Positions 1 to 29,742 of a stretch of 64,000 bases of DNA are shown one piece after another. Source of the DNA: Enterococcus crotali (GTDB taxonomy: Bacteria > Bacillota > Bacilli > Lactobacillales > Enterococcaceae); the NCBI RefSeq assembly GCF_000633635.1, contig NZ_AYPQ01000003.1, forward strand, positions 277,694 through 341,693. The letters are read 5' to 3'. The translations under genes and the position numbers were made by a program. The notes beneath the pieces were generated by a model. The model did no database searches, was not told the DNA's origin, and saw nothing but the letters and a program-made list of their open reading frames with translations. Numbering within the stretch: position 1 is the stretch's first letter; each line of letters opens with the position of its first letter.

Positions 1-3241
<3,241 letters not shown>

Positions 3242-4159: not shown

Positions 4160-5287
4160 ATGCTAAAAATTTTTGGCAAAGGTAAAAAAAGAAAAAAATA
4201 CGAAGATTACGATGAATATGACGACGAAGATTATGATGATGAAGATTATGATGACGACGAAGACTATGATGATGATGACTATGATGACGACGAAGACTAC
4301 GACGACGATGACGAAGATTATGATGACGACGACGAAGACTACGACGATGATGATGATGAAGATTATGATGACGACGAAGACTACGACGATGATGACGACG
4401 ATGATGAATATGACGATGATGAAGAAGAAGCCCGTTCACTATTCTCACGCAAAAAGAAAAAGCCTGCTCCAGCGCCATCTAGAAAGCCAAAACCAAAGAA
4501 AAAGAGACCGCCAGTCGACGAAGTCATTGATGATGATGAGTTAGAAGAACTTCAAGAAGAAAATAATCAACTTCAAGGAGAACTTCGAGAGCTAAAAGCA
4601 GAATTGCGCAAAAATAAGCGAGAGATCACTCAACTACAAAATGAAGTAGAATCAGCACGTCAAACTAATGAATCATTAGAAAATGAATTGTCAATGGTAC
4701 AGGCTGTACCAAAAGATTATGATGCACGGATGGCTGAACTAGAACAAGTCAGAAGTAAATATAACAGCCTGTTGCGTGAAAGTAATCGTCAAATCGATGA
4801 AACTGATTTAAACCGCAAAAAAGCAGAGCGCTTTGCAAATAAGATCAGACAATACGAACAAGAGCTATTAGCTAAACAAGAAGAAATTGATAAACTTACT
4901 GAGGATCGAATTGTGATCATGGCATCAGATACACCAACAGACACAGGTGCTTATGAAGAGTTAGCGAAAGTTCGACAAGAGTTAGAACGTACAAAACGCC
5001 AACTAGCTCAAAAGACGATCGATGTCGATCAACAATTATCAAAAGAAGACATTGGTGAAGTGTTACTAGAGGCGAAAAGACAAGCAAAAGAAATTGTTAA
5101 TCAGGCGAATCAGCGTGCGCAACTTATCAATGAAGAAACGAAGAGAAAAGCTGGCGTCTTAAAACGCCTAGAACGTGCCGAACAAGAATACCAAAATTAC
5201 TATAAACGAATCAAAGATGTGAAGGAAGAATCAGAACAAGCATTCAACCAAATCATCAACTTAGTGAAAGAAGATTCAGATCAATAA
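4160..5287 (+). CDS. Asp-rich coiled-coil protein with DivIVA-like C terminus
   Basis: Unknown function, 375 aa, no signal peptide or membrane segment. Order of parts: short basic N terminus (GKGKKRKK); about 80 residues of Asp/Glu/Tyr only, built from EDYDDD-like units; a Lys/Pro-rich strip (RKKKKPAPAPSRKPKPKKK); then predicted coiled coil from about residue 120 to the end. The C-terminal VLLEAKRQAKEIVNQANQ segment resembles the membrane-adjacent coiled coil of DivIVA/GpsB-type proteins (weak similarity by eye). Start ATG has an AGAAGGAAG site. It is first in an operon with a wall glucosaminidase (18 bp gap) and another unknown protein, so a scaffold role at the division site or envelope is a reasonable guess, not a demonstrated function. 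Confidence 0.8.
   Translation: MLKIFGKGKKRKKYEDYDEYDDEDYDDEDYDDDEDYDDDDYDDDEDYDDDDEDYDDDDEDYDDDDDEDYDDDEDYDDDDDDDEYDDDEEEARSLFSRKKKKPAPAPSRKPKPKKKRPPVDEVIDDDELEELQEENNQLQGELRELKAELRKNKREITQLQNEVESARQTNESLENELSMVQAVPKDYDARMAELEQVRSKYNSLLRESNRQIDETDLNRKKAERFANKIRQYEQELLAKQEEIDKLTEDRIVIMASDTPTDTGAYEELAKVRQELERTKRQLAQKTIDVDQQLSKEDIGEVLLEAKRQAKEIVNQANQRAQLINEETKRKAGVLKRLERAEQEYQNYYKRIKDVKEESEQAFNQIINLVKEDSDQ
4199..4433 (+). repeat. Low-complexity GAY-codon tract
   Basis: In-frame run of GAT/GAC/GAA/TAT codons encoding the acidic DYDDDE repeat. Alternating GAT and GAC make near-tandem units of 12-24 nt, so length variation by slippage or recombination between strains is likely. Long open frames in the other frames here are artefacts of this composition. 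Confidence 0.9.
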
Positions 5288-11367: not shown

Positions 11368-12045
11368 ATGAAAATATACCCTATCGATCAAATAGCAGCC
11401 GTCACTGATAAATCGCGTATCGACTTGTTCGATTACTTTCCGGAGGCCTTATTGAAAGAGGCGCAGATTTTTGTTTATGAAAAAAAAGAATACATCGTCC
11501 GCTTTGATAAACCAATAGAGCATCTTTTTCTTTTAATAGAAGGTAGAGCAAAAATTTATAAAATCCATGAAAATGGTGGACGCTCTTTGATTCAATTTAT
11601 TAGCAGAGGAGATTTTATAGGAGAGCTGTCTTTATTAGAAGTTGAAGATCAGATCAAAGACGTACAAGCAATCGATCAGTGCGTGTGTGTCGCTTTACCT
11701 TACCATACAGTTAAAGAAGCCTTGTTAAATGATAATCAATTTTTGAGAATGATTGCCAAATATTTAGGAAAAAAAGTCTTATTAAGAGTCGAACATTTTT
11801 CGAATAATCAAAACTATGAACTAAAATATCGTTTAGCAACATATATGCTACAGACTGAAGTCAATAGTATCTATACGGAGAAACAAACAGAAACAGCTGA
11901 ATTTTTAGGTGTTAGCTATCGTCATTTGATTCATACGCTTAATGAGTTCCAAAAAGCAGGATTAATCATAAAACATGGAAAAAGCTACCGAGTGAATCGA
12001 GAGAAACTAAGTGAGTTAGCAATAGGTTTGATTGAATATAAATAG
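11368..12045 (+). CDS. Crp/Fnr-family regulator, YeiL-like
   Basis: 225-aa cytoplasmic transcription factor. Residues 1-120 form a cyclic-nucleotide-binding-like beta-roll (HLFLLIEGRAKIYKIHENGG, GDFIGELSLLE), and the C-terminal part a winged helix with the recognition segment TAEFLGVSYRHLIHTLNEFQKAGLI. The pattern matches YeiL-type regulators. No Cys cluster for an Fe-S centre is seen at the N terminus. Start ATG has AGGAGG. Divergent partner is the YczE-type membrane protein. Monocistronic with terminator at 12065. Confidence 0.85.
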   Translation: MKIYPIDQIAAVTDKSRIDLFDYFPEALLKEAQIFVYEKKEYIVRFDKPIEHLFLLIEGRAKIYKIHENGGRSLIQFISRGDFIGELSLLEVEDQIKDVQAIDQCVCVALPYHTVKEALLNDNQFLRMIAKYLGKKVLLRVEHFSNNQNYELKYRLATYMLQTEVNSIYTEKQTETAEFLGVSYRHLIHTLNEFQKAGLIIKHGKSYRVNREKLSELAIGLIEYK

Positions 12046-12064
12046 TAAAAACTTGAATAATGAC

Positions 12065-12123
12065 ATTAAATGAAGCGCTCTTTACAAGGGAGATGACCAC
12101 TTCGTTTAATTTCATTATTTTTT
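12065..12123 (+). terminator. Terminator after YeiL-like gene
   Basis: Stem ATTAAATGAAG / CTTCGTTTAAT (one G-U) enclosing a 24-nt region that can itself pair, followed by TTCATTATTTTTT. Confidence 0.7.
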
Positions 12124-12480
12124 CTATGAATTTTCCTATCAAAAAAAATAAATTCTTCCCTCTTTTTTAATAATAAAAAAGAGTTTTTTTCTATAATATT
12201 AATGAAAGAAATCACAATGAAAAAATCCTGTTCTAAATAAGAACAGGAAAAAAAGTGGTAGAAATGGGGAAATATAAATCACTTTTAATTTTTATGTTTT
12301 TAAAAGTCGTATGATTTTTTAGGAATATTTTAAAAAAGATAGTTTAAAGATAGAAATAAGGCGAATAATATTTTTATCATCTCTTTTTTTTATCTTTTTA
12401 CAGTATAACTTATTTTTCTATCAATAACATATCAAATTTTTCGTTAATTTCTGAATAATTTGAGAAAAACCGGTTTTTTA
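12124..12480. other. AT-rich gap upstream of the recombinase
   Basis: No gene. It holds a second hairpin CTCTTTTTTA / TAAAAAAGAG with a T7 tail (12160-12190, plus-strand terminator-like) and the 23-nt hairpin at 12226-12248 described separately. The run of Ts upstream of 12226 on the opposite strand would also make that hairpin a minus-strand terminator. Confidence 0.6.
12226..12250. repeat. Outer inverted repeat, left copy
   Basis: TCCTGTTCT-AAATA-AGAACAGGA is a perfect hairpin. Bases 12231-12250 are an exact reverse complement of 13706-13725 on the far side of the recombinase gene, giving 20-bp inverted repeats about 1.5 kb apart. Confidence 0.75.
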
Positions 12481-12502
12481 TCGCCGTCATATTCGCCGTC
12501 AA
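12481..12502 (+). repeat. 22-bp direct repeat, left copy
   Basis: TCGCCGTCATATTCGCCGTCAA, itself two TCGCCGTCA units spaced 12 bp. Repeated at 13644-13665 with one mismatch. It sits 26 bp before the start codon of the recombinase. Likely recombinase binding or recombination site. Confidence 0.85.
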
Positions 12503-12527
12503 TTATTTTTATGAAAGGAAGATTACT

Positions 12528-13628
12528 TTGGCTAGAAAAGGTGAAAACATATATAAAAGAAAAGATGGACGTTGGGAGGGGCGATACGTCAAAGGGAGAC
12601 AGCCCAATGGACGTATCCGCTATGGCTATGTTTACAGTCAATCTTATAGAGAGGCAAAAAGAAAACTGACGATCAAAAAAGCTACAATGTTTTCTGTAAA
12701 AGAGCAATCAGAACAGTTTTATGGAAGTCTAAATAACTGGTTGGATTACTGGTTAGAGACAGTTATCAGTAAAAAAGTAAAGCCTGGAACATATGATAGT
12801 TATAAAAGTAAGTTGGAGTGTCATGTTCGCCCTGTGATAGGTGATAAACATCTGAGTGATTTAACCGAGGGAGATATTTACACTTTTGTTGAAAATACGA
12901 AGAAAAAAATTTCAGCCAACTCTCTCCATTCGGTGTTTAGAGTCTTAAAAACATCTTTAAAATATGCAGAAAAGCTTCACTTTATTAGAGGTTCAGTATA
13001 TGAGAACATTGAACTTCCAAAAATAAGAAAGCCTAAAATTGTCAATATTTCACAATTTGAACATAAACGTTTGAAAACTGTTGCAAAAGAATCATCTGAT
13101 GGATTAGCCATATTGATGTCATTAGAGACTGGGATGAGAATTGGAGAAATTGCTGGTTTAAAATGGGAGGATATTGACTTTGAAAATAAGGTCATCTCAG
13201 TTAAACGTACACTTCAGAGAGTGAAAACATACGCAGAAAGCGGGTACAAGACACAAATCATTGAAGAAAAACCAAAATCAGAAAATTCAGAGCGAATAAT
13301 TCCGCTATCATCTGATCTATTCACACAATTATTAAGGAGAAAAGAATTGAGTAATAGTCCATACGTTATTTCTAAAAATCAAAGCTTTACAGAACCTCGA
13401 ACGATTCGTTACCAATTTAAGCGGTTATTACAAAAATTTAAACTAGTTGAGTGTTCTTTTCATGCGTTAAGGCATTCTTTTGCTACTCGCTGTTTGGAAA
13501 AAGGGATAAATATTGCTGTGATCAGTTCCTTGTTAGGACATGCTTCGACCAAAATGACGCTTGATATTTATACAAATTCTAATTTAACAGAAGAACGAAT
13601 TGCAGTGGAAGCCATTGCGGCTATCTAG
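12528..13628 (+). CDS. Tyrosine recombinase / phage-type integrase
   Basis: 366-aa site-specific recombinase. The N-terminal MARKGENIYKRKDGRWEGRY is the arm-site DNA-binding segment common in Gram-positive integrases; residues about 65-155 are the SAM-like core-binding domain; the catalytic domain has Arg in ETGMRIGEIAGLKW, then HALRHSFATRCL (H-x-x-R), LLGHASTKMT and the nucleophile Tyr in LDIYTNS, so the catalytic set looks complete. Start is TTG with AAAGGAAG at 12514. There is no excisionase, relaxase, capsid or other mobile-element gene beside it; instead 22-bp direct repeats lie 26 bp before and 15 bp after the gene. It may be a relic of an element, a minimal mobile cassette or a DNA-rearranging switch. 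Confidence 0.95.
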   Translation: MARKGENIYKRKDGRWEGRYVKGRQPNGRIRYGYVYSQSYREAKRKLTIKKATMFSVKEQSEQFYGSLNNWLDYWLETVISKKVKPGTYDSYKSKLECHVRPVIGDKHLSDLTEGDIYTFVENTKKKISANSLHSVFRVLKTSLKYAEKLHFIRGSVYENIELPKIRKPKIVNISQFEHKRLKTVAKESSDGLAILMSLETGMRIGEIAGLKWEDIDFENKVISVKRTLQRVKTYAESGYKTQIIEEKPKSENSERIIPLSSDLFTQLLRRKELSNSPYVISKNQSFTEPRTIRYQFKRLLQKFKLVECSFHALRHSFATRCLEKGINIAVISSLLGHASTKMTLDIYTNSNLTEERIAVEAIAAI

Positions 13629-13643
13629 CGTAAAGTAATAAAT

Positions 13644-13665
13644 TCGCCGTCACATTCGCCGTCAA
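13644..13665 (+). repeat. 22-bp direct repeat, right copy
   Basis: TCGCCGTCACATTCGCCGTCAA, identical to 12481-12502 except one base in the spacer, and in the same orientation. It begins 15 bp after the recombinase stop codon. Confidence 0.85.
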
Positions 13666-13705
13666 AGGAAATCTAAAGCGTTGATAATAAACGTTTTTTT
13701 AGGAA

Positions 13706-13730
13706 TTTCCTGTTCTTATTTAGAATGGGA
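13706..13730. repeat. Outer inverted repeat, right copy
   Basis: TTTCCTGTTCTTATTTAGAA (13706-13725) is the exact reverse complement of 12231-12250. The following bases make an imperfect hairpin (TCCTGTTCT / AGAATGGGA). Confidence 0.75.
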
Positions 13731-13898
13731 GTCTCAGATAAGAAGTATAAAAAGTGGCAATCAAAACCTATTTTACTATAAAACAGAATAAAATAATAAT
13801 TTTGAGGTGAAGAGATTGTTCGTTTTTATTTAAAAGTGAACACGCTACAAGCTTAAAGAGATTAGTAAAAAATATCTTCAAGAAGAAGGAGAGAACAA

Positions 13899-14594
13899 AT
13901 GTTTAACATAGGGTTAGTCAATGCGCTTGAAAATTATCAGTCAGAGTACATAGTTGCGTTAAAAGAGAAAAAGTGTCTGATTCATCAAATTAATCTAAAT
14001 GAGATGGCTGAACAAATTCCTAACATGGATGCTGTGATTATCGTCGAACATACGTTAGAAGATATTGGACTGACATGCGAATTAATTATTAAAGTAAGAA
14101 GCTTAACGAATCGTTTTATTTTGGTTTTATCTAATGAGCCAACAAAAGTAAATCGAATCGTTCATCTTCAACTTGGAGTAGACTGCACATTTGATCGTCG
14201 AACAGAACCAGATGAGTTTTGTTTATTTGTGATGAATACACTTGAAAGAAGATCAGATAATAAGAATCAGGAGGTTGCAATTCTTCAACCAACTAAGGAA
14301 TCGCCACCTGCAATCCAATTAGTTCCCAATAATTTCTCTGTGAACATCGAAGGCAAAGGGGAAGTGGGATTGACTAAGTTGGAATTCAAAGCGCTGGAAT
14401 CATTGATTCAGAGAAAAGGTGAAGCAATCACCTATGAAGAACTGTATAAAAAAGTTTGGGGAGAAGAAAAGGGCGACAAAAAATATCGCGTAGCCAATCT
14501 GGTTTTTCATTTGAGAAAAAAACTGGAAGACGATTCCTTTAAGCCAACATATATCCGAACTGTTCGCTCTAGGGGATATATGTTGTCTAGTTGA
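13899..14594 (+). CDS. Orphan OmpR-type regulator with degenerate receiver
   Basis: 231 aa. The C-terminal about 95 residues are a clear OmpR/PhoB winged helix (LTKLEFKALESLIQRKGEAITYEELYKKVWGEE ... IRTVRSRGYML). The N-terminal 115 residues have the alternating pattern of a receiver, but the acidic pocket and phospho-Asp are missing (the strand that should end in Asp reads AVIIVEH), so it is probably not controlled by phosphorylation. No histidine kinase is adjacent. Good AAGGAGAG site. It lies 158 bp upstream of the WxL operon and is paralogous to the regulator at 29032 on the operon's other side; regulation of the WxL operon is the natural guess. Confidence 0.85.
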   Translation: MFNIGLVNALENYQSEYIVALKEKKCLIHQINLNEMAEQIPNMDAVIIVEHTLEDIGLTCELIIKVRSLTNRFILVLSNEPTKVNRIVHLQLGVDCTFDRRTEPDEFCLFVMNTLERRSDNKNQEVAILQPTKESPPAIQLVPNNFSVNIEGKGEVGLTKLEFKALESLIQRKGEAITYEELYKKVWGEEKGDKKYRVANLVFHLRKKLEDDSFKPTYIRTVRSRGYMLSS

Positions 14595-14713: not shown

Positions 14714-14751
14714 AAAAAAATCATACAAATAGAGAGGAGTTGAGAAAGATA

Positions 14752-17700
14752 ATGAAGATCGGAAAAAAATCGATAGTAGTTGTTTTGTTGGTTTCTTTGT
14801 TTAGTATTTTAGGATTTCTGGTATTTAGTAATCAAACCAAGATACAAGCTTCTGAGAACAATAAAGGCCAATATACTCTTGAGAAAATTTCTGAATCAAC
14901 AGATCAAATAGAATTTCTTTTGAAAGTTAAAAATCCACAAAAAGAAGAAATTGTATTGTCTTTAGATGGAAATGAAACAGGTCTTTTATCTGAAGAGGCA
15001 CTCATAGAAAATCTTCCTTCAAAGCAATTAAATGAGCTAGAAGTTAAAGAGCATGATCAGATGAATAAGGTAACTATTCAATTTAAAGAAGCCACAGGAG
15101 AATATGAATTTCCAATGATTTTTAATGCAAGAACAACTGGAAAAGACATCTCTGATACGCTTAAAGTAGTTCATAAAAATGCTGTAGTTGCAAAGGCTAG
15201 CTTTGACTTGAAGTATCCAGAAGAAGCAGTTGAGTCTAAAAAAAATAATACTGAAACTGCCTCCACAGTTGCTTATAGTGCAAGAAATTTAGTAACCGTT
15301 GAGGACTGGGATTCATTTGTTAGTGCTTTGCAAAATCCTACAGTAAGTTCGATTCAATTGACTAAAAATATCTCTCGCGGAAGCTCATCAGTTAATCCTG
15401 GTACAGTGAGTAGAAGTGTAACAATTGATGGGGCTAACGGAGTGGATAATTTCAGTTTAGATTTTGGTGCTAATTCGGCTGCTAATTTTAGAATCAATTT
15501 AGGAGCAGTTGGGATAGCTTCTGAAATCAGATTTAACAATGTGAATCTAAAAGGTTCTGGTACTGCCGTTTCTTCAAATGATGCGATAGTATATGCGTCA
15601 GCTGCTGATAGTGCAAATTGGACTGCGGCTTTTAACAATATTTCATTAAGTGAAGGTCATACCAAACGTATTGCCTATTTGCCAAACGGCGCTATTTTGA
15701 TGGACGGAGGCAATATTCATCTGACTCATAATGGTATAGGTTCTGGTGGTGCTGGCGGAACAAGTATGAATAATAACTGGCATAAATTATTTGAAGCAAA
15801 AAATATCACCATTACCAATGGGACAAAAATTAGCGGGACCTTCTCAGATATGTTTATGGGCTCTCAAGTAAATGATGCAACGATTCTTGTTAATCAAGGT
15901 TCAACTTTAGACTTGAATAATAGCAGAACTACCATGATCGCTATCGATGGAGACCGTGCCACGATGAAATTTGACGGTGAAGGAACAAAAGCAACCCTTT
16001 ATAGTTCGCAAACTGGGACAGATCGATTTGGAGGCATCCTTTGTATCCAAGGTGTGAATTCTTTAATAGAAGTAACGAATTCAGCCCACTTTTATCTAGA
16101 TTCACAATCGCATCCAGCTACTATTCTACAAGGAAACGGCAGTATTTTTAATATCAAAAATAAAGCTGTACTGAATGCAAAAATAAGAAATGATGCAACA
16201 GGAAATGGTTTTGGTGCAGTTATGCGTTTTAGAACATCAAGTGATATGCAGTTTAATATTGAAAATAATTCAGAATTTTCAATTATTAAGGAAGCAAGTT
16301 CAAGTTCTGAAACATTACGATTGTCTGGCGGTAACAATGCTGTAAAGGTTACTGGCGGATCAAAGTTCAAAATAATTGGAAATGGTAACCAAGAAGCAAT
16401 CAACTATACAGGTACTGGAAATTCATTTAAATTAGAGGATAAAAATTCTAAAGTAGAAATTATTTCTACTTTAGGTAGAGGATTCAGTTCGGGAAACCAG
16501 ACAATTATTGCTGGTGATCCAGGAACAGAATTTACAATCGATGGCTATGGTACTGGTGGTACATTTAGTTTTGGAACAAATTCGATTTTGGAATTTCACA
16601 ATATGTTGTACTACGACTTTAGAAATAATAGCGGTAGTGTAGTATTTAATGGCAGTGGCGATTTAAAAAATGTTTATTCTGATGTCAGTGTTTGGAAGCA
16701 AGGAAATGCTGCTCAACTAGAAGGGAATCCTTATAGTGCATGGACGCTTATTGATATGGGACTTTATGACACTGGTTTTAGATATGATTATCATAGTTCA
16801 CGTGCTGCAAGATATCGAACGTTCCAAATGAGCCAAATAAATTTACCTGGTACTTTTACAACGGATGATTCAGTTCATGCCGTATTAGGAAGCACTGCAA
16901 ATAATATGCGGACAATGGCACGTATTAGTGGAAATAACGCTAATCCAGTTGTTGATGAATTGCGAACGCCAACGAATGCTGATAAGTATGCATTTGGTCA
17001 TGTGACTATTCCGGAAGGTGTTGAAGGCTCTCGCTCTGCATGGACAGATGAGGTGACTGTGGTTTTAAAAGTTACCAAAGCGAATACTGGTGAAACCTAT
17101 GAAATAAATGGAAAAACAGTGGGTGCTGATGAGCAATCACAAGGGTTGAATGTTTATGGAGAAGGTGCTCGTCCAGGGTTATTCCAAGCAGAAAATAAGC
17201 GTACTGCAAATGGAGCGACTGAGTTTTTTGAAACAGGTGACAAAGTTGAAGTGCTCAGAGCTTGGCGTGGAGGCAAAGATGGAGACTTAAATCCAGATCC
17301 TAACACGGTCCATTTAGGGAAACCCGGTGACGAAGTTCCAGGTGATTTAAAAGGCTGGGCAGACTCGGTCGCTACAATTGATGTTACTCCACCCACTCAA
17401 GCAGTAGTGACAACAGACTTGAGTAATGCCACAAAACAATTATCAGGTACGAGTGATGAGAATGGCGCAAAAGTCTTCTTTAAAGTAAATGGTGCATGGT
17501 TAAAAGGAACAGATGGTCAAACGATATCTACGATTGTAAATGCTGGAAAATGGGAAATTGATTTGCCGGAATATTTAACAAAAACAGATAAAGTTGATGT
17601 CTATCTAAAAGATACGACGTTGATCAGTCCATTACCATCTTATACGTTACCTGATACGTATACCCAAGAACCAGATGGGGTATTCGGAAATATAAATACG

Positions 17701-18717
17701 GAAGTAGATAGTTACAGCACTTATGCAGGCTACCATGATGCAATAAAAGCTGGAACTAAAGATGATCGCTTTAATCAAGCCAAACGTTTAATCGTTAAAG
17801 ATGTCATTCCAGACCAATCAACATTAGTCAAATCAGTCGAATCAAGTGGTGGTTCCGATAAAACGGCCATTGGCGACACATTGACCTATACCTTGAAAGC
17901 TGAGAATCCTAAAGCAGGATCTGAAGCTTGGAAAAATGTTGAATTGGTCGACGTTCTTGCAGAAGGACTTGATTTTGATCCAGCCGATCATGGGATCACA
18001 ATCAATGGTAAGTCGATCGGTGAAGATCAAAGTAAGTTTAGCTATGTTGAAGCAACACGAACATTGAAAATTTATGTTGGTGATTTAGCGGCTAATACAA
18101 ATGCAACAGCAACCTTCAAGGTGAAGCTTGGGCAAAGTGCTGTTGTCGGTAGCGACGTTAAAAATAGAGCGAAAGCTAACGGTGATTCACCGCAAGAAAA
18201 ACCATTCGTTCAAGGGCCAATCAATCCAGACTCAGCTCATGCCATTCTGACCGTAAATTCTAATGAGGTCGGGTTACCAGGAGGAAAAGCCGAGGGTGTT
18301 CTTTCATTCATTTCTGCTCCCAAAATGATTGACTTTGGGCTAAAAGAATCAGGCAGTTATGGTAATTTTTCTGCAGATGATCCAGAGTACGATCAATCTC
18401 TTGTTGTTAGTGATAGCCGAGAAGTCTTAACTGATTGGAAGCTATCAGCCAAGGTAACGAAAGTTATGGAATCAACAGCCGACCATTCTTATAAATTACC
18501 AGAAGCGCTTGTCTATAAAGAGGGTTCCCGTGATAATGTGCTGAAGTTGGAAGAACCATACGACATTATCAAAAAGGCCAGAGGCAGCCAAAATGTTAGT
18601 GAAGAAGAATGGGTCAAAAAAGGAAATGGATTCAAAATGGTTCTAGAAGCAAACCAATACAGAAAACTTGGTGAATACACTGCAACTGTCAAATTTACCT
18701 TAAGTGAAACCCAATAA
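14752..18717 (+). CDS. Large WxL surface protein with beta-helix region
   Basis: About 1321 aa secreted wall protein. Signal peptide with a strong hydrophobic core (VVVLLVSLFSILGFLVF). Residues about 190-650 show repeated short Asn/Gly-rich strands typical of a right-handed beta-helix; about 1010-1150 is a DUF11/isopeptide-type domain (GDTLTYTLKAENPKAGSEAWKNVELVDVLAEGL cut into two phrases here); the C-terminal about 150 residues are a WxL domain (FISAPKMIDFG, then the first motif DWKLSAKV near 1227). The distal motif reads KFTL, with Phe replacing Trp. No LPxTG. ATG 14752 is preferred to the TTG at 14740, which abuts the AGGAG. First gene of the WxL operon, 12 bp before the small YPSTG protein. 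Binding to peptidoglycan via the WxL domain is family knowledge; ligand unknown. Confidence 0.85.
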   Translation: MKIGKKSIVVVLLVSLFSILGFLVFSNQTKIQASENNKGQYTLEKISESTDQIEFLLKVKNPQKEEIVLSLDGNETGLLSEEALIENLPSKQLNELEVKEHDQMNKVTIQFKEATGEYEFPMIFNARTTGKDISDTLKVVHKNAVVAKASFDLKYPEEAVESKKNNTETASTVAYSARNLVTVEDWDSFVSALQNPTVSSIQLTKNISRGSSSVNPGTVSRSVTIDGANGVDNFSLDFGANSAANFRINLGAVGIASEIRFNNVNLKGSGTAVSSNDAIVYASAADSANWTAAFNNISLSEGHTKRIAYLPNGAILMDGGNIHLTHNGIGSGGAGGTSMNNNWHKLFEAKNITITNGTKISGTFSDMFMGSQVNDATILVNQGSTLDLNNSRTTMIAIDGDRATMKFDGEGTKATLYSSQTGTDRFGGILCIQGVNSLIEVTNSAHFYLDSQSHPATILQGNGSIFNIKNKAVLNAKIRNDATGNGFGAVMRFRTSSDMQFNIENNSEFSIIKEASSSSETLRLSGGNNAVKVTGGSKFKIIGNGNQEAINYTGTGNSFKLEDKNSKVEIISTLGRGFSSGNQTIIAGDPGTEFTIDGYGTGGTFSFGTNSILEFHNMLYYDFRNNSGSVVFNGSGDLKNVYSDVSVWKQGNAAQLEGNPYSAWTLIDMGLYDTGFRYDYHSSRAARYRTFQMSQINLPGTFTTDDSVHAVLGSTANNMRTMARISGNNANPVVDELRTPTNADKYAFGHVTIPEGVEGSRSAWTDEVTVVLKVTKANTGETYEINGKTVGADEQSQGLNVYGEGARPGLFQAENKRTANGATEFFETGDKVEVLRAWRGGKDGDLNPDPNTVHLGKPGDEVPGDLKGWADSVATIDVTPPTQAVVTTDLSNATKQLSGTSDENGAKVFFKVNGAWLKGTDGQTISTIVNAGKWEIDLPEYLTKTDKVDVYLKDTTLISPLPSYTLPDTYTQEPDGVFGNINTEVDSYSTYAGYHDAIKAGTKDDRFNQAKRLIVKDVIPDQSTLVKSVESSGGSDKTAIGDTLTYTLKAENPKAGSEAWKNVELVDVLAEGLDFDPADHGITINGKSIGEDQSKFSYVEATRTLKIYVGDLAANTNATATFKVKLGQSAVVGSDVKNRAKANGDSPQEKPFVQGPINPDSAHAILTVNSNEVGLPGGKAEGVLSFISAPKMIDFGLKESGSYGNFSADDPEYDQSLVVSDSREVLTDWKLSAKVTKVMESTADHSYKLPEALVYKEGSRDNVLKLEEPYDIIKKARGSQNVSEEEWVKKGNGFKMVLEANQYRKLGEYTATVKFTLSETQ

Positions 18718-18729
18718 TGGAGGGATAAA

Positions 18730-19086
18730 ATGAGAACAAAAAAAGTAACATATCTGCTTATCTTCTTCATTGCTTGGTTTACGCTATTCATTTCGCCAGC
18801 TCAAATGGTCAATGCACAAGGGGATGAAAACGGCGGTGGTGCTGTTCAAACGAATGGAGAAATTGGTTTCTACGAAGAAGATGGTTCAACTGAACCACCG
18901 ACATCAACTAGTTCAACACAACCAGTTGATAAGGAAATGCCGACTAAACCTAAAGGCAGATATCCTTCAACCGGTGAGCTAGTAAAAACAAGTTTATCCA
19001 TTAGTGGCGCTGTTGTGGTTGTAATTGTTTTAGGCTATTTTCTTTTGAAACGGAAAAAGGAAAAGCAAGAAGGAAAGGGGCATTAA
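18730..19086 (+). CDS. Small sortase-anchored WxL-locus protein (YPSTG)
   Basis: 118 aa. Signal peptide to about residue 31 (VNAQG), a short Glu/Thr/Ser/Pro linker, then GRYPSTGE, a hydrophobic helix (SISGAVVVVIVLGYFLL) and a KRKKEKQ tail. This is a cell-wall sorting signal in which the usual Leu is Tyr. Such mini LPxTG-like proteins recur in WxL gene clusters; the role is unknown. It lies 12 bp after the large WxL gene and 3 bp before the next, so translation is probably coupled. No sortase gene is present in this window, so the housekeeping sortase would have to act on it. Confidence 0.85.
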   Translation: MRTKKVTYLLIFFIAWFTLFISPAQMVNAQGDENGGGAVQTNGEIGFYEEDGSTEPPTSTSSTQPVDKEMPTKPKGRYPSTGELVKTSLSISGAVVVVIVLGYFLLKRKKEKQEGKGH

Positions 19087-19089
19087 GCA

Positions 19090-19899
19090 ATGAAAAGAAC
19101 AATGACATTGTCTTTACTTGCCGTGATTCTTCTAGGAGTGGGACCTTTTATTACAGGGAATCAGACTGTATCCGCGCAAGAAAGTTTAGATGGCACAGGT
19201 TCGATCAAGTTTACTGGGGACTATGATAATGTTGGAATCAGAGATCCGGAAAACCCGGATAAAACTGTCGATGCAGGAGAAAGTCCAAGTTCATCAGGAA
19301 AGCTACGTATTGATTTTGTTCCACAATTCAATTTTACTGGACGGAATAAAATATCTGCTAAAGATATGAATTATTCAGTGAATGCTCAATTATTTCATGA
19401 CGAAACTGAAGCTCGTGGAAACTTCATACAAGTTTCAGATTATCGTGGCGGAGCAATGGGGTGGACTCTTCGGTTAAAGCAAGAGACACAATTTCAAAAT
19501 ACTAAAACACCAAACAATCAGTTGAATGGTGCTGTGTTGTCTTTAGACAAATCATGGACGAATTCTACAGTAGATAAAGCATATGCCCCAGTTGTTTCAG
19601 GTGATATTATTCGCTTGGAAAATATTGGAGAAACATATAATTTAGCAGAAGCAAAACAAGGCACAGGAGCAGGCACGTGGTCTATTTCATTCGGAGCGTC
19701 ATCTGATAATCCCCTTGGAAGAGAAAACAGCTTGAAACCCAAAGTCGATCCAGACGGAAAGCCGATGCTTGATGCAAGCTTTGAAAATAAGCAAATGCAA
19801 GAAAATAGTGCAATAACGTTGTCGATACCCGGAACAACGAAAAAAGATCCGGTACCTTACACTACGGTGCTAACTTGGACATTAGCCGAGTTACCATAA
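19090..19899 (+). CDS. WxL-domain surface protein
   Basis: 269 aa, secreted. Signal peptide to about residue 30 (QTVSAQE). Begins with the typical mature sequence DGTGSIKFTGDYDN and DPENPDKTVDAG. Both WxL motifs are intact: GWTLRLKQ in the middle and LTWTLAELP at the end, so this is the most canonical WxL protein of the operon. Family members attach non-covalently to peptidoglycan and form complexes with DUF916/DUF3324 and small LPxTG-type partners encoded in the same loci, which are both present here. Confidence 0.92.
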   Translation: MKRTMTLSLLAVILLGVGPFITGNQTVSAQESLDGTGSIKFTGDYDNVGIRDPENPDKTVDAGESPSSSGKLRIDFVPQFNFTGRNKISAKDMNYSVNAQLFHDETEARGNFIQVSDYRGGAMGWTLRLKQETQFQNTKTPNNQLNGAVLSLDKSWTNSTVDKAYAPVVSGDIIRLENIGETYNLAEAKQGTGAGTWSISFGASSDNPLGRENSLKPKVDPDGKPMLDASFENKQMQENSAITLSIPGTTKKDPVPYTTVLTWTLAELP

Positions 19900-19931
19900 A
19901 TAAAAACACACAATATTAGGAGGAAATACAA

Positions 19932-20714
19932 ATGAAATTAACACACAAATTATGCGGAGCAGCTTTATTAGCAGCAACAGGAGTGGCTTTAGCATTGCCA
20001 AACACAACAAAAGCAAACGATCTTGAAGGATCTGGACACATTGAGTTCACATATAACTCAGATGAAAATCCAGTCATCACTGATCCAGGTAATTCAACTG
20101 GTACAACAATCACAACAGGTATTACTACAACAAACCCTGGACCTATGGGAATTATCGGTATCAGCCCATTAGAGTTTGAGTCACATGATATTTTAACAAG
20201 CCAAACACAACGTGACTACAATGCTTCACTTATTACTGCAAACCCAGATAGTACAGAAGCTGATAAAGCAACTAACACTGAGAAATTCGACATGCAAAAT
20301 GCTGTATGGTTCCAAGATTTACGTGCGACTGAGAAACGTCCATACCAAGTAAGTGCTAAAATCACTGAAAACTTCAAAGAAAAAACAAGCGGTACTTATT
20401 TGAAAGGTGCTAACATTACGTACAAAAACATCAATGTAACATCAACTGCAGACCCAAGCTTAAAACCAGCTGAAAAAGCAGGAACATTGAAACTTACAGC
20501 AGGCGATGCTGCAACAGCAGGAGATTCAGTAATTTTTGTTGACAACAAAGACGCAGCAGAAGGCGTTGGTTACGGTAAATTCGAACTTAACTTTGGTTTA
20601 CACTCTGATGACACTGCAAAAGATGCTGTTGTATTAAACATTCCAGCTACTACTGCAATCGGTGAAGGAGATTATTCTGCAAAAATCACTTGGACAATGG
20701 CTGACGTAATTTAA
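19932..20714 (+). CDS. WxL-like surface protein with altered motifs
   Basis: 260 aa, secreted; signal peptide ends near NTTKANDLEG. The body has the WxL-family pattern (GHIEFTYNSDENPVITDP, GPMGIIGISPLEFESHDI, ... ), but the first WxL motif is replaced by PYQVSAKI and the last reads TWTMADVI (Met for Leu). Codon use is noticeably more optimal than in the neighbours (many CCA, GCA, AAC, GGT), suggesting high expression. It is followed by a hairpin before the DUF916 gene. A strong AGGAGG precedes the ATG. It may be the main structural WxL component (inference from codon use). Confidence 0.85.
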   Translation: MKLTHKLCGAALLAATGVALALPNTTKANDLEGSGHIEFTYNSDENPVITDPGNSTGTTITTGITTTNPGPMGIIGISPLEFESHDILTSQTQRDYNASLITANPDSTEADKATNTEKFDMQNAVWFQDLRATEKRPYQVSAKITENFKEKTSGTYLKGANITYKNINVTSTADPSLKPAEKAGTLKLTAGDAATAGDSVIFVDNKDAAEGVGYGKFELNFGLHSDDTAKDAVVLNIPATTAIGEGDYSAKITWTMADVI

Positions 20715-20764
20715 GTCGTACCCATTGATCCGTTTTAAAGAAAAAAATAAGTACTGAGTGAGGC

Positions 20765-20795
20765 TCGCCGGCTCAATGAGTCGGCGAATTTCATT
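20765..20795 (+). terminator. Intra-operon hairpin, probable partial terminator
   Basis: Stem TCGCCGGCTC / GAGTCGGCGA (one G-U) with an AAT loop, then ATTTCATTTCAT. The tail is weak, so read-through into the DUF916 gene 25 bp further is expected; it would reduce downstream expression or stabilise upstream mRNA. Confidence 0.6.
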
Positions 20796-20819
20796 TCATA
20801 GAAAGGTTAGAGAACTGTA

Positions 20820-21902
20820 ATGAAAAAAAGAGCATTTATATTTTTACTCTCACTTATATACATAGCTAGTTTTGTTTTACCAACGCAACTGGCATACGCC
20901 GATGATTCTAAGAAAAAAGAGGAACAAAAAAATCCGCTAGGCTTTAGCTATAAAGTAATTAAACCAGACAATCAACAAAATCCACAAGTTGGTTATTATG
21001 ATCTACGAATGACACCTGGGCAAAAACAAACGGTTCAAATTGATTTGACAAATGATGGAGATCAAGAAGTAGAGGTAGAGGTTTCAATTAATGGTGCTAA
21101 GACGAATGGAAATGGTGTTATTGAATATGGCCCAAGCTCGATCGATAATGATAAATCATTGAAATATGATTTTAAAGAGGTTGTTAAAGGAGAAGAATCT
21201 GTAAAAATCCCGCCTAAAACAACTGTTCCATTGAAATTAGCTATTACAATGCCTGAAAGTAGTTACGATGGTATGATTTCTGGTGGTATTGAAATGAAGC
21301 GTCATATCAGCAAAGAAGAGCAAGCAAAACAAAAAGGGGTCGTAAATGAGTATGCGTTTTTAGTGGGGATGGTACTGACAGAAACAGATACAACTGTACA
21401 ACCTGAATTGGAATTGAACAAAGTATATGCTGGATTAAGTAATTATCGCAATAGTATTTTTGTCAATCTTTCAAATATAGAAGCAGCGATTTTAGATGAT
21501 TTGACATTGGATGTTCAAATTATGTCAAAAGAATCTGATAGCGTTATTTATGACACTAAAAAAGCCGGTATGCGTTTTGCACCAAATAGCATGATGGACT
21601 TTCCAATTTCAATGAATGGGGAAAAAATGGTGCCAGGTAAGTATCGAGCACATGTTCTTGCAACATCCAAAGATAGAAAATGGGAATGGACCGAAGAATT
21701 CACAATTACGGATGAAGATGCAGATAAATACAACAAGCAAGATGTTAATTTGGTTCAAGAACAAGGAATTAACTGGAAGCTAATTGTACCAATTGTAGCA
21801 GGTGTCTTTATTTTAGGCTTGATCATATTCTTTGTAGTTAGAACCCTTAATAAAAAAAGAGCCACTAAGAAAAAGAAGGCTAAAAAAAGCAAACGTAGAT
21901 AA
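20820..21902 (+). CDS. WxL-interacting protein, DUF916/DUF3324
   Basis: 360 aa membrane-anchored surface protein. Signal peptide (ends AYADDS), DUF916 part about 40-160 (FSYKVIKPDNQQNPQVGYYDLRM, DGMISGGIEM), DUF3324 part about 165-300, a transmembrane helix (LIVPIVAGVFILGLIIFFVV) and a very basic cytoplasmic tail (KKKKAKKSKRR). These proteins bind WxL proteins and peptidoglycan and are a hallmark of WxL clusters. ATG start after a GAAAGG site. Confidence 0.93.
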   Translation: MKKRAFIFLLSLIYIASFVLPTQLAYADDSKKKEEQKNPLGFSYKVIKPDNQQNPQVGYYDLRMTPGQKQTVQIDLTNDGDQEVEVEVSINGAKTNGNGVIEYGPSSIDNDKSLKYDFKEVVKGEESVKIPPKTTVPLKLAITMPESSYDGMISGGIEMKRHISKEEQAKQKGVVNEYAFLVGMVLTETDTTVQPELELNKVYAGLSNYRNSIFVNLSNIEAAILDDLTLDVQIMSKESDSVIYDTKKAGMRFAPNSMMDFPISMNGEKMVPGKYRAHVLATSKDRKWEWTEEFTITDEDADKYNKQDVNLVQEQGINWKLIVPIVAGVFILGLIIFFVVRTLNKKRATKKKKAKKSKRR

Positions 21903-21930
21903 AAAAACTTAAAAGGAGAGAGAGCCGAAT

Positions 21931-22596
21931 ATGAGTATGTTGGATTGGTCCTTTGTAACATTACTATCTAGTGCCCTACTCTTTTTCCTATTTGCACTAT
22001 TCTCTGTTGTTCTCTCAATAATGACTAGACGAAAGTTACGTCCATTGAAAAGGAGACCACCTAAAAATAAGCGCAAACGGAAACAATTTATGATGAAACG
22101 TCGTAAATTTGAAAAACAAGTAAAACGACAGCAGAATACAGGGATTTTCCTTATTGTTTTAATGTTGCTGTCAACTGGCGGCGCCGTCTACACTCGAAAC
22201 TATCAAATGAATAATCTAAATGCGAATGATTCAGAGTCTATCGTTCAAAGTTATTATTTATTAGATGAAGTTGAGCTTCAATTAAACAATATCAAAAACG
22301 ATAAAAATCCACAAAAATCGATTAAAAATCTAAGGGAACTTTCGCTCTCTCTATCTAGTTATGGTGCAAGAAGAGCATACCAAGGCTTAACTGAGGAAGG
22401 GCAAATGTTGTTGAATCGGCATTTTGTTTTGTTGAAAGAACTTGGAACAAACTTGAGTAGTCAAACTGTAGACACATTAGGAAACAAAGACACGATGGCA
22501 GGCTATCAAAAGGATGTAAACAAAGTGAAGGATAGTCAAAAGAAAGTATTCAAACGATTTAAAGTCAATGAAGCTGCTTTGAAGACCAAAAAGTAG
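21931..22596 (+). CDS. WxL-locus membrane protein of unknown function
   Basis: 221 aa. First membrane segment about residues 10-33, then an extremely basic 35-residue loop (RPLKRRPPKNKRKRKQ and onward), a second membrane segment about 70-88, and a 130-residue hydrophilic C-terminal part rich in Leu heptads. By the positive-inside rule the basic loop is cytoplasmic and the C terminus outside. I do not recognise a named domain. AAAGGAGAG site. Its place between the DUF916 protein and two signal peptidases suggests a role in assembly or export of the WxL complex. Confidence 0.8.
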   Translation: MSMLDWSFVTLLSSALLFFLFALFSVVLSIMTRRKLRPLKRRPPKNKRKRKQFMMKRRKFEKQVKRQQNTGIFLIVLMLLSTGGAVYTRNYQMNNLNANDSESIVQSYYLLDEVELQLNNIKNDKNPQKSIKNLRELSLSLSSYGARRAYQGLTEEGQMLLNRHFVLLKELGTNLSSQTVDTLGNKDTMAGYQKDVNKVKDSQKKVFKRFKVNEAALKTKK

Positions 22597-22618
22597 CAGC
22601 TAGGTTGAGGTGAATCAA

Positions 22619-23380
22619 ATGGAACAAGACAACAAAAAGAAAAAACAACGCCCAGTAACTAAAACGACGAAATCAACGTCGAAAAAAAAGACGAATCAGC
22701 TCTCCAAAAAACAAAACAAGGATAGCTCACGAGAAAGAACGAAATCTTCAATAAAAGTAAAATCACAGAAAAAACGTAAGCTGCAGAAGGTCAAAAGAAA
22801 GAAATTAACAAAAAAGCAACGTATTGCTTTAAAGAAACAACAACATAAGAAGTTGATTTTGGAAGTGATCATTACAATTTTACTCACGTTGACCTTAACG
22901 TCAATAATTGCGTATTTTACGTTCTCTATTCCTAAAGTTGAAGGATATTCCATGACGCCGACAGTGAATGATAAGGACCGTTTGTTTGTGAATAAATGGG
23001 GACAAGTCAAGCGGTTCAATTTAATTTACTTCAAAGAGCCTAAACATCAGGAAGTAATGATTCGGCGTGTCATTGCTTTACCTGGTGAAGACTTTTTTTA
23101 TAAAGAAGGTAAATTATATATAGATGGAGAAGAAATAGTAGAACGTTTTATGTCTCAAACAACAGAAGCTAACGGGGAAAAACAGACCAATCGTACACCT
23201 GATTTTTCGTTACGAGAGATAGTACAAGCAAAACGTGTACCCAAAGGTAAGTATGTTGTTTTGGGGGATAATCGAAGCTATTCAACGGACAGTCGCTATT
23301 TTGGTCTGGTCGATGAAAAAGATATTATCGGTGTGGTAACAATGAGAGTATTCCCAATTCATGAAATGACTCATTTTTAG
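22619..23380 (+). CDS. Signal peptidase I homologue lacking the catalytic lysine
   Basis: About 253 aa. Very Lys/Arg-rich cytoplasmic N terminus (about 80 residues), one membrane helix (LEVIITILLTLTLTSIIAYF), then the SPase I domain. Box B GYSMTPT carries Ser (near residue 111). Box D reads VMIRRVIALPGED: the position of the general-base Lys (present as IKRVIGMPGD in the next gene) is Arg (codon CGG, near residue 149). Box E GDNRSYSTDSRYFG is intact. It may therefore be inactive or altered and act as a chaperone or partner, as proposed for pilus-locus SipA-type proteins. ATG 22619 is preferred to the GTG at 22610, which overlaps the Shine-Dalgarno. Confidence 0.9.
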   Translation: MEQDNKKKKQRPVTKTTKSTSKKKTNQLSKKQNKDSSRERTKSSIKVKSQKKRKLQKVKRKKLTKKQRIALKKQQHKKLILEVIITILLTLTLTSIIAYFTFSIPKVEGYSMTPTVNDKDRLFVNKWGQVKRFNLIYFKEPKHQEVMIRRVIALPGEDFFYKEGKLYIDGEEIVERFMSQTTEANGEKQTNRTPDFSLREIVQAKRVPKGKYVVLGDNRSYSTDSRYFGLVDEKDIIGVVTMRVFPIHEMTHF

Positions 23381-23403
23381 TCTAGAAATAACGAGGTAAA
23401 AAG

Positions 23404-24111
23404 ATGAAACCGTCAAACTCAGAGCAGATAGTACATAGAAAAAGTCCTACTGGTCATGCAAAGAAAAGACCTCCTCATAAAAAAAAGAAAACATTCAGCT
23501 ACATAAAAAGACAACGGATACTTGAAAGAAAAAAAAGAAAAAAAGAAAGTTGGGCTGGGAAAGTACGTCGTTATTTTTCGAACTTGATTTTTCTTCTTTT
23601 TTTCATGGCTTGTTGTCTGTTTTTATTTCATATGGCCACACATCAAGTATCAGGTCATTCTATGGCGCCGACTTTTGCGAATAAGGACCGCGTTTTGGTC
23701 GCTAAAGGCGTGCACCCGTCTAGATATGAGATTATCACTTTTGAACCTAAAACGGCGAAAGGAGACTCTTATATCAAGCGGGTCATAGGCATGCCAGGAG
23801 ATGTTATCTGGGTGGAAGAAAACACGTTATATATCAATCATCAAGCAGAAAACAATCCGAAGAATCTCTATGGACAAAACTTAGCGGCTAAAGAACTACC
23901 GGATGGAACGATTCGAGTGAATGTTACAACAAATGTTGCGAGGGCATTATCAGTCTATTATAAGATACCTGAAAATGCTTATTTTGTTTTAGGCGACAAT
24001 CGAAATCATTCTGAAGATAGTCGGATTTTTGGTTTGGTTGATCAAGATCAGATCGAAGGTATCGTTGTTTATCGGTATTATCCATTCAATAAGATGGGCG
24101 TTGTTCGATAA
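23404..24111 (+). CDS. Signal peptidase I, catalytic residues intact
   Basis: 235 aa. Basic N-terminal region of about 55 residues, one membrane helix (LIFLLFFMACCLFLFHMA), box B SGHSMAPT with the nucleophile Ser near residue 86, and SYIKRVIGMPGD with Lys near 125; box E GDNRNHSEDSRIFG. Should cleave secretory signal peptides on the outer face of the membrane. Immediately follows the Lys-less paralogue (23 bp gap). A WxL operon with its own signal peptidase pair suggests that WxL precursors or the small YPSTG protein need dedicated processing (inference). Confidence 0.93.
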   Translation: MKPSNSEQIVHRKSPTGHAKKRPPHKKKKTFSYIKRQRILERKKRKKESWAGKVRRYFSNLIFLLFFMACCLFLFHMATHQVSGHSMAPTFANKDRVLVAKGVHPSRYEIITFEPKTAKGDSYIKRVIGMPGDVIWVEENTLYINHQAENNPKNLYGQNLAAKELPDGTIRVNVTTNVARALSVYYKIPENAYFVLGDNRNHSEDSRIFGLVDQDQIEGIVVYRYYPFNKMGVVR

Positions 24112-29031: not shown

Positions 29032-29742
29032 ATGTTTAACATAGCAATTGTAAACAATGATGGTAATAGTAATTCTGCATACATAAAAGCTTTAGAAGAA
29101 AAAAAGTGTGTGATACATCAGATGGATTTTGACGAGCTTGCGAAAGAACTCTCTGGAATCCATGCTGTACTTATCACTGAATCAGGAGTTGAAAACATCG
29201 GTCAAACATACGAATGGATCATTAAAACCAGAAGTTTATCCAATTGTTTCATTTGGGTTTTATCCAGAGAAGCAACAAAAATAAATCGGATCATTCATCT
29301 TCAACTTGGCGCAGATGGGACACTTGATAGTGAGATCGATCTAGAGGAATTTTCACTTTATATTATGAAGACTCTTGAAAGAAGAGCAGTTGGACAAAAT
29401 CAACTAGAGAGCACTAGCTCTGCGAGACGATTGAACGAAGAGGATGGACCTTTTGACATTCGCTTGATTTCTGGTAATTCTTCCGTAAAAATTGATGGAA
29501 AAAATGAAATAGCTTTAACCGATCTAGAGTTTAGCACGTTAGAATTATTGATTGAGCGAAAAGGTCAGGCTGTTACGTATGAAGAATTGTATGAAAATAT
29601 TTGGGGAGAAGAAGAGGGAGATAAAAAATATCGTGTTGCCAATTTAGTTTTTCATTTAAGAAAAAAACTAAATGATGATTCCTTCAAGTCAAAATATATT
29701 CGAACAGTACGTTCGAGGGGGTATATGTTACCTAGGTACTAA
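29032..29742 (+). CDS. Second orphan OmpR-type regulator with degenerate receiver
   Basis: 236 aa, paralogue of the regulator at 13899: the N termini (MFNIAIVNND against MFNIGLVNAL) and winged helices (KKYRVANLVFHLRKKL, YIRTVRSRGYML) align along their whole length. The receiver-like half again lacks the phosphorylation Asp (strand AVLITES). Start ATG 29032 is chosen by alignment to the paralogue and by the GAGGGA site six bases upstream; in-frame ATGs at 28993 and 29026 are less likely. Located between the WxL operon and the chitinase gene, with no kinase nearby. It could regulate either neighbour. Confidence 0.85.
   Translation: MFNIAIVNNDGNSNSAYIKALEEKKCVIHQMDFDELAKELSGIHAVLITESGVENIGQTYEWIIKTRSLSNCFIWVLSREATKINRIIHLQLGADGTLDSEIDLEEFSLYIMKTLERRAVGQNQLESTSSARRLNEEDGPFDIRLISGNSSVKIDGKNEIALTDLEFSTLELLIERKGQAVTYEELYENIWGEEEGDKKYRVANLVFHLRKKLNDDSFKSKYIRTVRSRGYMLPRY

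Follow-up and report, generated by a model that had tools for sequence, protein, structure and literature searches.

Genes and repeats at the window locus

The window (the whole 64,000-nucleotide stretch of Enterococcus crotali DNA analysed, positions 277,694 to 341,693 of contig NZ_AYPQ01000003.1) contains a tyrosine recombinase gene that is flanked by two sets of repeats and lies upstream of a regulator gene and a surface-protein locus (Table 1). The genes flanking this cassette encode Crp-type and Trans_reg_C regulators, with no mobile-element genes among them. The integrase gene is the sole gene between the two core sites; conjugation, excisionase and cargo genes are absent from this interval. 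An earlier note on this DNA had pointed to the lack of other mobile-element genes, and our annotation agrees. The first protein of the surface locus (14740-18717) is large and has a pectate-lyase-like adhesive domain (Pfam, run on this protein only). We take the rest of the locus to encode WxL-type surface proteins, a DUF916-like protein and signal peptidases, names assigned from the sequence. Another protein homologous to the WxL-locus regulator (59% identity) is encoded at 29032-29730 (+) of the window (G000:C3:306725-307423) with no integrase match nearby. The genome contains 31 homologues of this regulator, and the cassette is found at only some of them.

Table 1. Features of the window locus (window coordinates)
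Feature	Coordinates	Strand	Basis
Left (far) core site, TCCTGTTCT-AAATA-AGAACAGGA	12226..12248	.	repeats, hairpin, orthologue alignment
Proposed invertible segment, exact 20-bp inverted repeats included	12231..13725	.	repeat search, family comparison
Left core to left arms, outward-promoter region of the family	12251..12479	-	family scan
Left pair of arm-type sites, TTCGCCGTCA twice, the first with one mismatch	12480..12501	+	
Tyrosine recombinase (integrase), 366 aa, TTG start	12528..13628	+	open frame, Pfam, fold
Right pair of arm-type sites, TTCGCCGTCA twice, oriented as the left pair	13643..13664	+	
Right core site, on the regulator side, TCCTGTTCT-TATTT-AGAATGGGA, with a centre inverse to that of the left site	13708..13730	.	
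Trans_reg_C (winged-helix) regulator heading the WxL locus, proposed direct target	13899..14594	+	
Surface-protein locus downstream	14740..24111	+	open reading frames

We found that the 366-residue protein belongs to the tyrosine recombinase family. It matched Phage_integrase (PF00589, E 2.2e-28) and contains a SAM-like domain. Residues R204, K250, H312, R315, H338 and Y348, which we take to have catalytic roles, are invariant in 35 aligned integrase sequences. The N-terminus is predicted to form a three-stranded sheet plus a helix, followed by core-binding and catalytic domains; this sheet-plus-helix presumably corresponds to an arm-binding domain. By fold, the best match among solved structures was Tn1549 Int (6en2_A; E 1.7e-16, 21% identity, TMq 0.65). 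By sequence (phmmer), an archaeal Xer-like protein (4a8e) ranked first and Tn1549 Int next, and the N-terminal 71 residues, searched separately, matched no solved structure. Placement in the Tn916 family therefore rests on the fold.

The integrase gene appears to be under purifying selection. Its dN/dS against six orthologues was 0.07-0.12, a rough estimate because dS was saturated (above 1.3) in five of the six comparisons. The earlier note had offered a relic of a larger element as the plain alternative; these values, and the recurrence of the architecture across the genus, argue against a relic.

Both sets of repeats described in that note are present. The 22-bp direct repeats on either side of the gene, TCGCCGTCATATTCGCCGTCAA at 12481-12502 and TCGCCGTCACATTCGCCGTCAA at 13644-13665, are identical at 21 of 22 positions. 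Each consists of a tandem 10-bp unit, TTCGCCGTCA (starting at 12480 and 12492, and at 13643 and 13655), with one mismatch in the unit that starts at 12480. The pair CGCCGTCA-N2-5-CGCCGTCA occurs at five places in the 3.9-Mb genome. Two of these are the direct repeats of the window, and the other three are no more than 60 bp from paralogous integrases. The minus strand of the window also has TTCGTCGTCA in four copies at 4219-4378, which differ from the arm unit at a single position and are spaced 33-84 bp apart; this is possibly a repetitive coding stretch unrelated to the arms.

The inverted repeats (12231-12250 and 13706-13725) are exact over 20 bp and extend to 25 nt at 92% identity. Dinucleotide shuffles of window positions 12000-14000 gave exact inverted pairs of at most 17 bp, and none (0/500) reached 20 bp. 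Compared with the same shuffles, the direct repeats were not significant (longest exact run 12, shuffles up to 15) because the single mismatch splits the 22-mer; we regard them as real because they recur in the integrase family. The core GTTCTAAATAAGAACAGGAA, allowing up to two mismatches, was found genome-wide only at the two inverted-repeat sites of the window. A search for the repeats elsewhere in the genome, as the note had proposed, found the paired direct-repeat unit only beside paralogous integrases and the core nowhere else. The left core forms a hairpin whose perfect stem of 9 bp carries a 5-nt loop (-12.6 kcal/mol, z -5.1), followed on the minus strand by six T residues (12220-12225), an arrangement that is terminator-like for leftward transcription. 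The right core has no T-tract.

Core and arm sites across the integrase family

The integrase is a member of a multicopy family and not the lone recombinase of the earlier note. There were 17 integrase matches in the window genome, 11 of them full length (43-100% identity), and 6-13 copies in each of 22 genomes of the genus. A co-directional homologue of the window regulator lies directly downstream of 8/11 full-length integrases in the window genome, and 7/11 have an inverted repeat score of at least 16; an eighth locus (L005) has a 14-bp exact inverted pair. The best 80 of 551 matches included relatives in E. caccae, E. quebecensis, E. termitis, E. moraviensis, E. plantarum, E. ureasiticus, E. 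raffinosus and E. avium. The family was found in 0/6 genomes of the genus of genome G026, at 8 places in 2 genomes of the genus of G022, and in 3/29 genomes of the family of G056, from which loci L234-L236 were left out of the locus analysis. A set of 180 loci was obtained by removing loci with identical 700-nt integrase stretches, and a set of 111 by also removing loci more than 85% identical (from 121 to 111). Since the loci are related, counts from these sets are not independent.

We found that most loci are flanked by inverted repeats. Repeats with a score of at least 20 flanked the integrase at 133/180 distinct loci compared to 5/537 mismatched flank pairs, with true searches extending up to 900 bp upstream, control flanks of 700 bp, and some control pairs being orthologues that share sites. 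When equal 600-bp flanks were used, the same threshold was reached in 72/100 loci (a set in which five named loci were counted twice) and in 1/295 mismatched pairings. No inverted repeat with a score of at least 18 was found in 38/180 loci. In the set of 158 loci, 29 had no repeat scoring at least 16, and a wider search (1.1-5 kb on each side) found none of at least 19 for 26 of those 29. The cassettes had a median length of 1556 bp (range 1435-2258; 142 loci).

The core sites share the dyad TTTCTTGTT-centre-AACAAGAAA, with a centre that varies between loci. The central 7 bp were identical between the two copies in 119/119 loci, all with a repeat score of at least 18 (as in the 142-locus counts), a preselection that favours identity overall, and with the dyad centre placed a few bases off in L001, L048, L049 and L050. 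Outside this centre, mismatches between the two copies amounted to 1-16% at most arm positions and to about half beyond the site (119 loci). Comparison of the window locus with its orthologues showed a change of the centre from AAATA to AAGTA in both copies together. Centres that are alike within a locus and unlike between loci need continuing recombination, or selection for it. Inversion in which strands are exchanged over a short overlap requires identical centres of this kind, and they are unexpected of unrelated terminators or transposon ends. Inverted recombination sites, as in an invertible switch, flank the segment in the window and at most loci of the family.

The direct repeats are also a family feature. 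On the integrase strand, the segment contained the motif CCGTCA on the far-core side of the gene in 140/142 loci, on the side of the near (regulator-facing) core in 132/142, and on both sides in 130/142. It was reversed in one locus on the far-core side and three on the near-core side (shuffles, about two each). With this distribution, the direct repeats resemble sites for arm-type binding and not for excision. Arm-like repeats, the predicted N-terminal domain and the fold of Tn1549 Int would together fit an arm-and-core integrase. The earlier note had suggested that recombination at the direct repeats would excise the recombinase gene. We rejected this as the main mechanism: across the family, the repeats consist of short arm-like units in tandem, and 130/142 loci have them to the left and right of the gene in one orientation.

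Orientation, candidate promoters and proposed target genes

The integrase almost always pointed toward the adjacent regulator. In the set of 158 loci, it was directed toward the regulator in 92 loci with repeats and away from it in one. In the set of 180 loci, the numbers were 102 and one, and another 48 loci had repeats and no adjacent regulator. In the sole exception, L142 (also L024), an orthologue 73% identical to the window integrase is inverted between its repeats. For the outer flanks of L142, the cognate flank outscored the opposite flank in 6/6 orthologues on both sides. Single flank scores were mostly inside the shuffle range (mean 45, maximum 65) and went beyond it only against L153 and L048, on the regulator side. 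A second inverted pair is from the Streptococcaceae: the integrase is directed away in L111 (a MAG) and toward in L114 (Lactococcus chungangensis), and the two loci have integrases that are 71% identical and adjacent pilin-type genes that are 65% identical. The L114 integrase gene (L114:6001-7092) has one in-frame stop codon, although the cores at this locus are intact and differ very little from each other.

Both orientations were therefore found between species for two orthologous pairs (the window locus and L142; L111 and L114). No within-species inversion was found among the E. raffinosus plasmids compared, where two loci (on four and two plasmids) each had one orientation. The earlier note had named a single configuration in all reads and strains as part of what would speak against its proposal. 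Most of the data fit that description (102 versus 1); the two inverted orthologous pairs do not, and one of them, with L142, came from the comparison with related genomes that the note had called for.

We found that promoter-like sequences in the cassettes are directed outward, away from the integrase. A match to TTGAC[AT]-16..18-nAnnnT was found facing outward in 62/142 loci and inward in 4/142, compared to 8.7 in shuffles. In the 111-locus set, there were 47 outward and two inward (shuffles, 6.7). The far core with its T-tract scored as a terminator in 32/142 loci compared to 7/142 for the near core, the near cores being the sole comparison, with no shuffle control. A terminator followed the integrase gene in 29/142 loci compared to 1.2 in shuffles. 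By strict definitions, outward promoter, far-core terminator and post-integrase terminator occurred together in only 2/111 loci, and most loci were without one or another of the three. In the common orientation, the promoter aims off target, often into a terminator, and inversion would aim it at the target.

The open reading frame beyond the near core was co-directional with the integrase in 138/142 loci, opposite in two and absent in two. Among the proposed targets in the family are Trans_reg_C regulators, WxL proteins, LPXTG pilins and collagen-binding-type adhesins. The E. raffinosus target would be a regulator with secA2/secY2/asp1 behind it. WxL genes also lie downstream of an integrase in E. 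gilvus, at a locus where no repeat was found.

Of the parts of the cassette, the window copy has the two cores, the two arm pairs, an open integrase frame and the terminator-like far core. No terminator was found behind its integrase gene, and the best outward promoter in a consensus scan scored 9, compared to 9.1 in shuffles. Its orthologues L048-L050 have a TTGACA-type outward promoter match. The window switch may be weak, may have an unrecognisable promoter, or may be partly decayed.

A proposed promoter switch and its alternatives

Our results make it likely that the 1.5-kb cassette is a self-encoded invertible promoter switch for the downstream regulator or adhesin, and that it is usually OFF. 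The window segment is probably a self-encoded invertible cassette of this kind, and it likely controls the WxL locus by way of the regulator that follows it, the assembled orientation being the OFF state. In the proposed mechanism, the integrase would bind the inverted cores for catalysis and would also bind the tandem arm sites (Table 1). Recombination between the cores would flip the segment containing the integrase's own gene. As the segment is now oriented, a promoter just inside the far core, directed away from the integrase, would not face the regulator. In this OFF state, transcripts from the promoter would end at the far core, with its hairpin and T-tract acting as a terminator. After inversion (ON), the promoter would face the regulator or, elsewhere, an adhesin, pilin or accessory-Sec locus. 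We infer that the integrase catalyses the flip, that the flip is reversible, that ON and OFF follow orientation, and that the window copy is still working. The earlier note had proposed a switch acting on the WxL locus or a self-mobilising cassette. Private core sequences at each locus, identical 7-bp centres and the two inverted orthologous pairs support the switch, with the inverted repeats behaving like a pair of cores for inversion, and do not support the mobile cassette.

The 102:1 skew in orientation, the lack of orientation differences among the compared E. raffinosus plasmids and the degenerate promoter of the window copy might indicate that the cassette is fixed. It would then be a formerly invertible cassette that at most loci now inverts seldom or not at all, and whose sites and gene are kept for another reason, for example because the integrase or its DNA serves as a regulator, or the integrase as a trans-acting recombinase. 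We consider this unlikely: the 7-bp centres are identical within 119/119 loci though they vary between loci, two orthologous pairs are inverted, and the integrase appears to be under purifying selection, with catalytic residues invariant in 35 aligned members. The left hairpin with its T-tract scores as a terminator, and the hairpins could also be ordinary transcription terminators around an acquired gene, their match being incidental. This would be very surprising, as the centre is kept in inverted form in 119/119 loci and the loops of unrelated terminators are not reverse complements of each other. In addition, the right core has no T-tract, and near cores score as terminators in just 7/142 loci.

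The cassette could instead be a minimal mobile element, either self-excising (Tn916-like) or transposing (IS-like, with terminal inverted repeats). Tn916-type elements have inverted-repeat ends with dyad core sites, which the cassette resembles. The integrase fold is closest to that of Tn1549 Int, there are many copies per genome, and heteroduplex-tolerant excision would be compatible with the sequence. Nonetheless, we think a mobile element improbable. Each locus has its own repeat sequence, and 138/142 insertions precede a co-directional regulator or surface gene in a fixed orientation; random insertion gives neither a fixed orientation nor a co-directional target. Mobility genes and direct att sites, which characterize integrative conjugative elements and transposons, were looked for and not found, and the core centres are inverted; we place the cassette outside the mobile-element class because it lacks these genes and sites.

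A self-inverting promoter switch has parallels in known systems. In the Hin-type flagellar switch of Salmonella, an outward promoter in the invertible segment drives a neighbouring surface-structure gene. By analogy, the cassette would work like a Hin-type switch but with an integron/ICE-style tyrosine integrase: like the Hin segment, it encodes its own recombinase, and it would use an outward promoter to drive surface genes. The hin gene is inside the invertible segment (PMC5903667), and its product is a serine recombinase whose enhancer is bound by Fis (PMC3798978). In contrast, the cassette uses a tyrosine integrase with arm sites and occurs in many copies with private cores. In fim-type and C. 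difficile RecV-type switches, a tyrosine recombinase flips a promoter before surface genes (PMC5903667). The fim and RecV recombinases are encoded outside the flipped DNA and one RecV serves several switches, whereas each ~1.5-kb cassette encodes its own integrase, one per switch. PsrA of the pneumococcal cod locus is, like the cassette integrase, a tyrosine recombinase of a lactic acid bacterium, and it inverts DNA between short inverted repeats (PMC7096588). PsrA shuffles hsdS coding sequences, whereas the cassette would place a promoter before surface loci. The integrase resembles those of Tn916/Tn1549-family ICEs in its fold and its predicted N-terminal sheet-plus-helix. Unlike these ICEs, the cassette is without conjugation, excisionase and cargo genes, and its cores are inverted with identical centres.

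We found no published description of these cassettes in the open-licence literature, a weak absence given that scope. Published surveys found inversions to be few in Bacilli, with one signature among Bacilli samples (PMC5903667) and, in Bacillus-like Firmicutes, a per-genome median of 0 (PMC11892184). On balance, we lean toward a broader notion: that ICE-type arm-and-core integrases were domesticated in enterococci as independent, self-inverting, default-OFF switches, several per genome and with private cores, that gate WxL, LPXTG-pilus and accessory-Sec loci, the far core doubling as a silencing terminator. If so, enterococci would hold a large class of switches hidden by lab-grown, OFF-locked genomes, and one genome might combine many surface states. 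The possible silence of WxL and pilus loci in culture, and the route from mobile-element integrase to regulatory invertase, would become testable; any set of long reads shows how a cassette is oriented.

Some copies of the integrase differ from the common arrangement. One paralogue in the window genome (L012/L013, G000:C1:115287-116362) matched as two adjoining pieces, residues 2-108 and 107-360, and is a broken copy; it lies upstream of another regulator homologue at C1:116927. Integrases that are 47-49% identical and have neither flanking inverted repeats nor a regulator were found at L006, L058-L060, L063, L065, L081, L088 and others. These are possibly one orthologous set of orphan integrases that might act in trans. 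Between the E. raffinosus megaplasmid loci L130 and L132, identity is 78% in the cassette, 98.7% in the DNA on its left and 88.7% in the DNA on its right. The cassette therefore seems to have been replaced, or to be diverging faster than its left flank.
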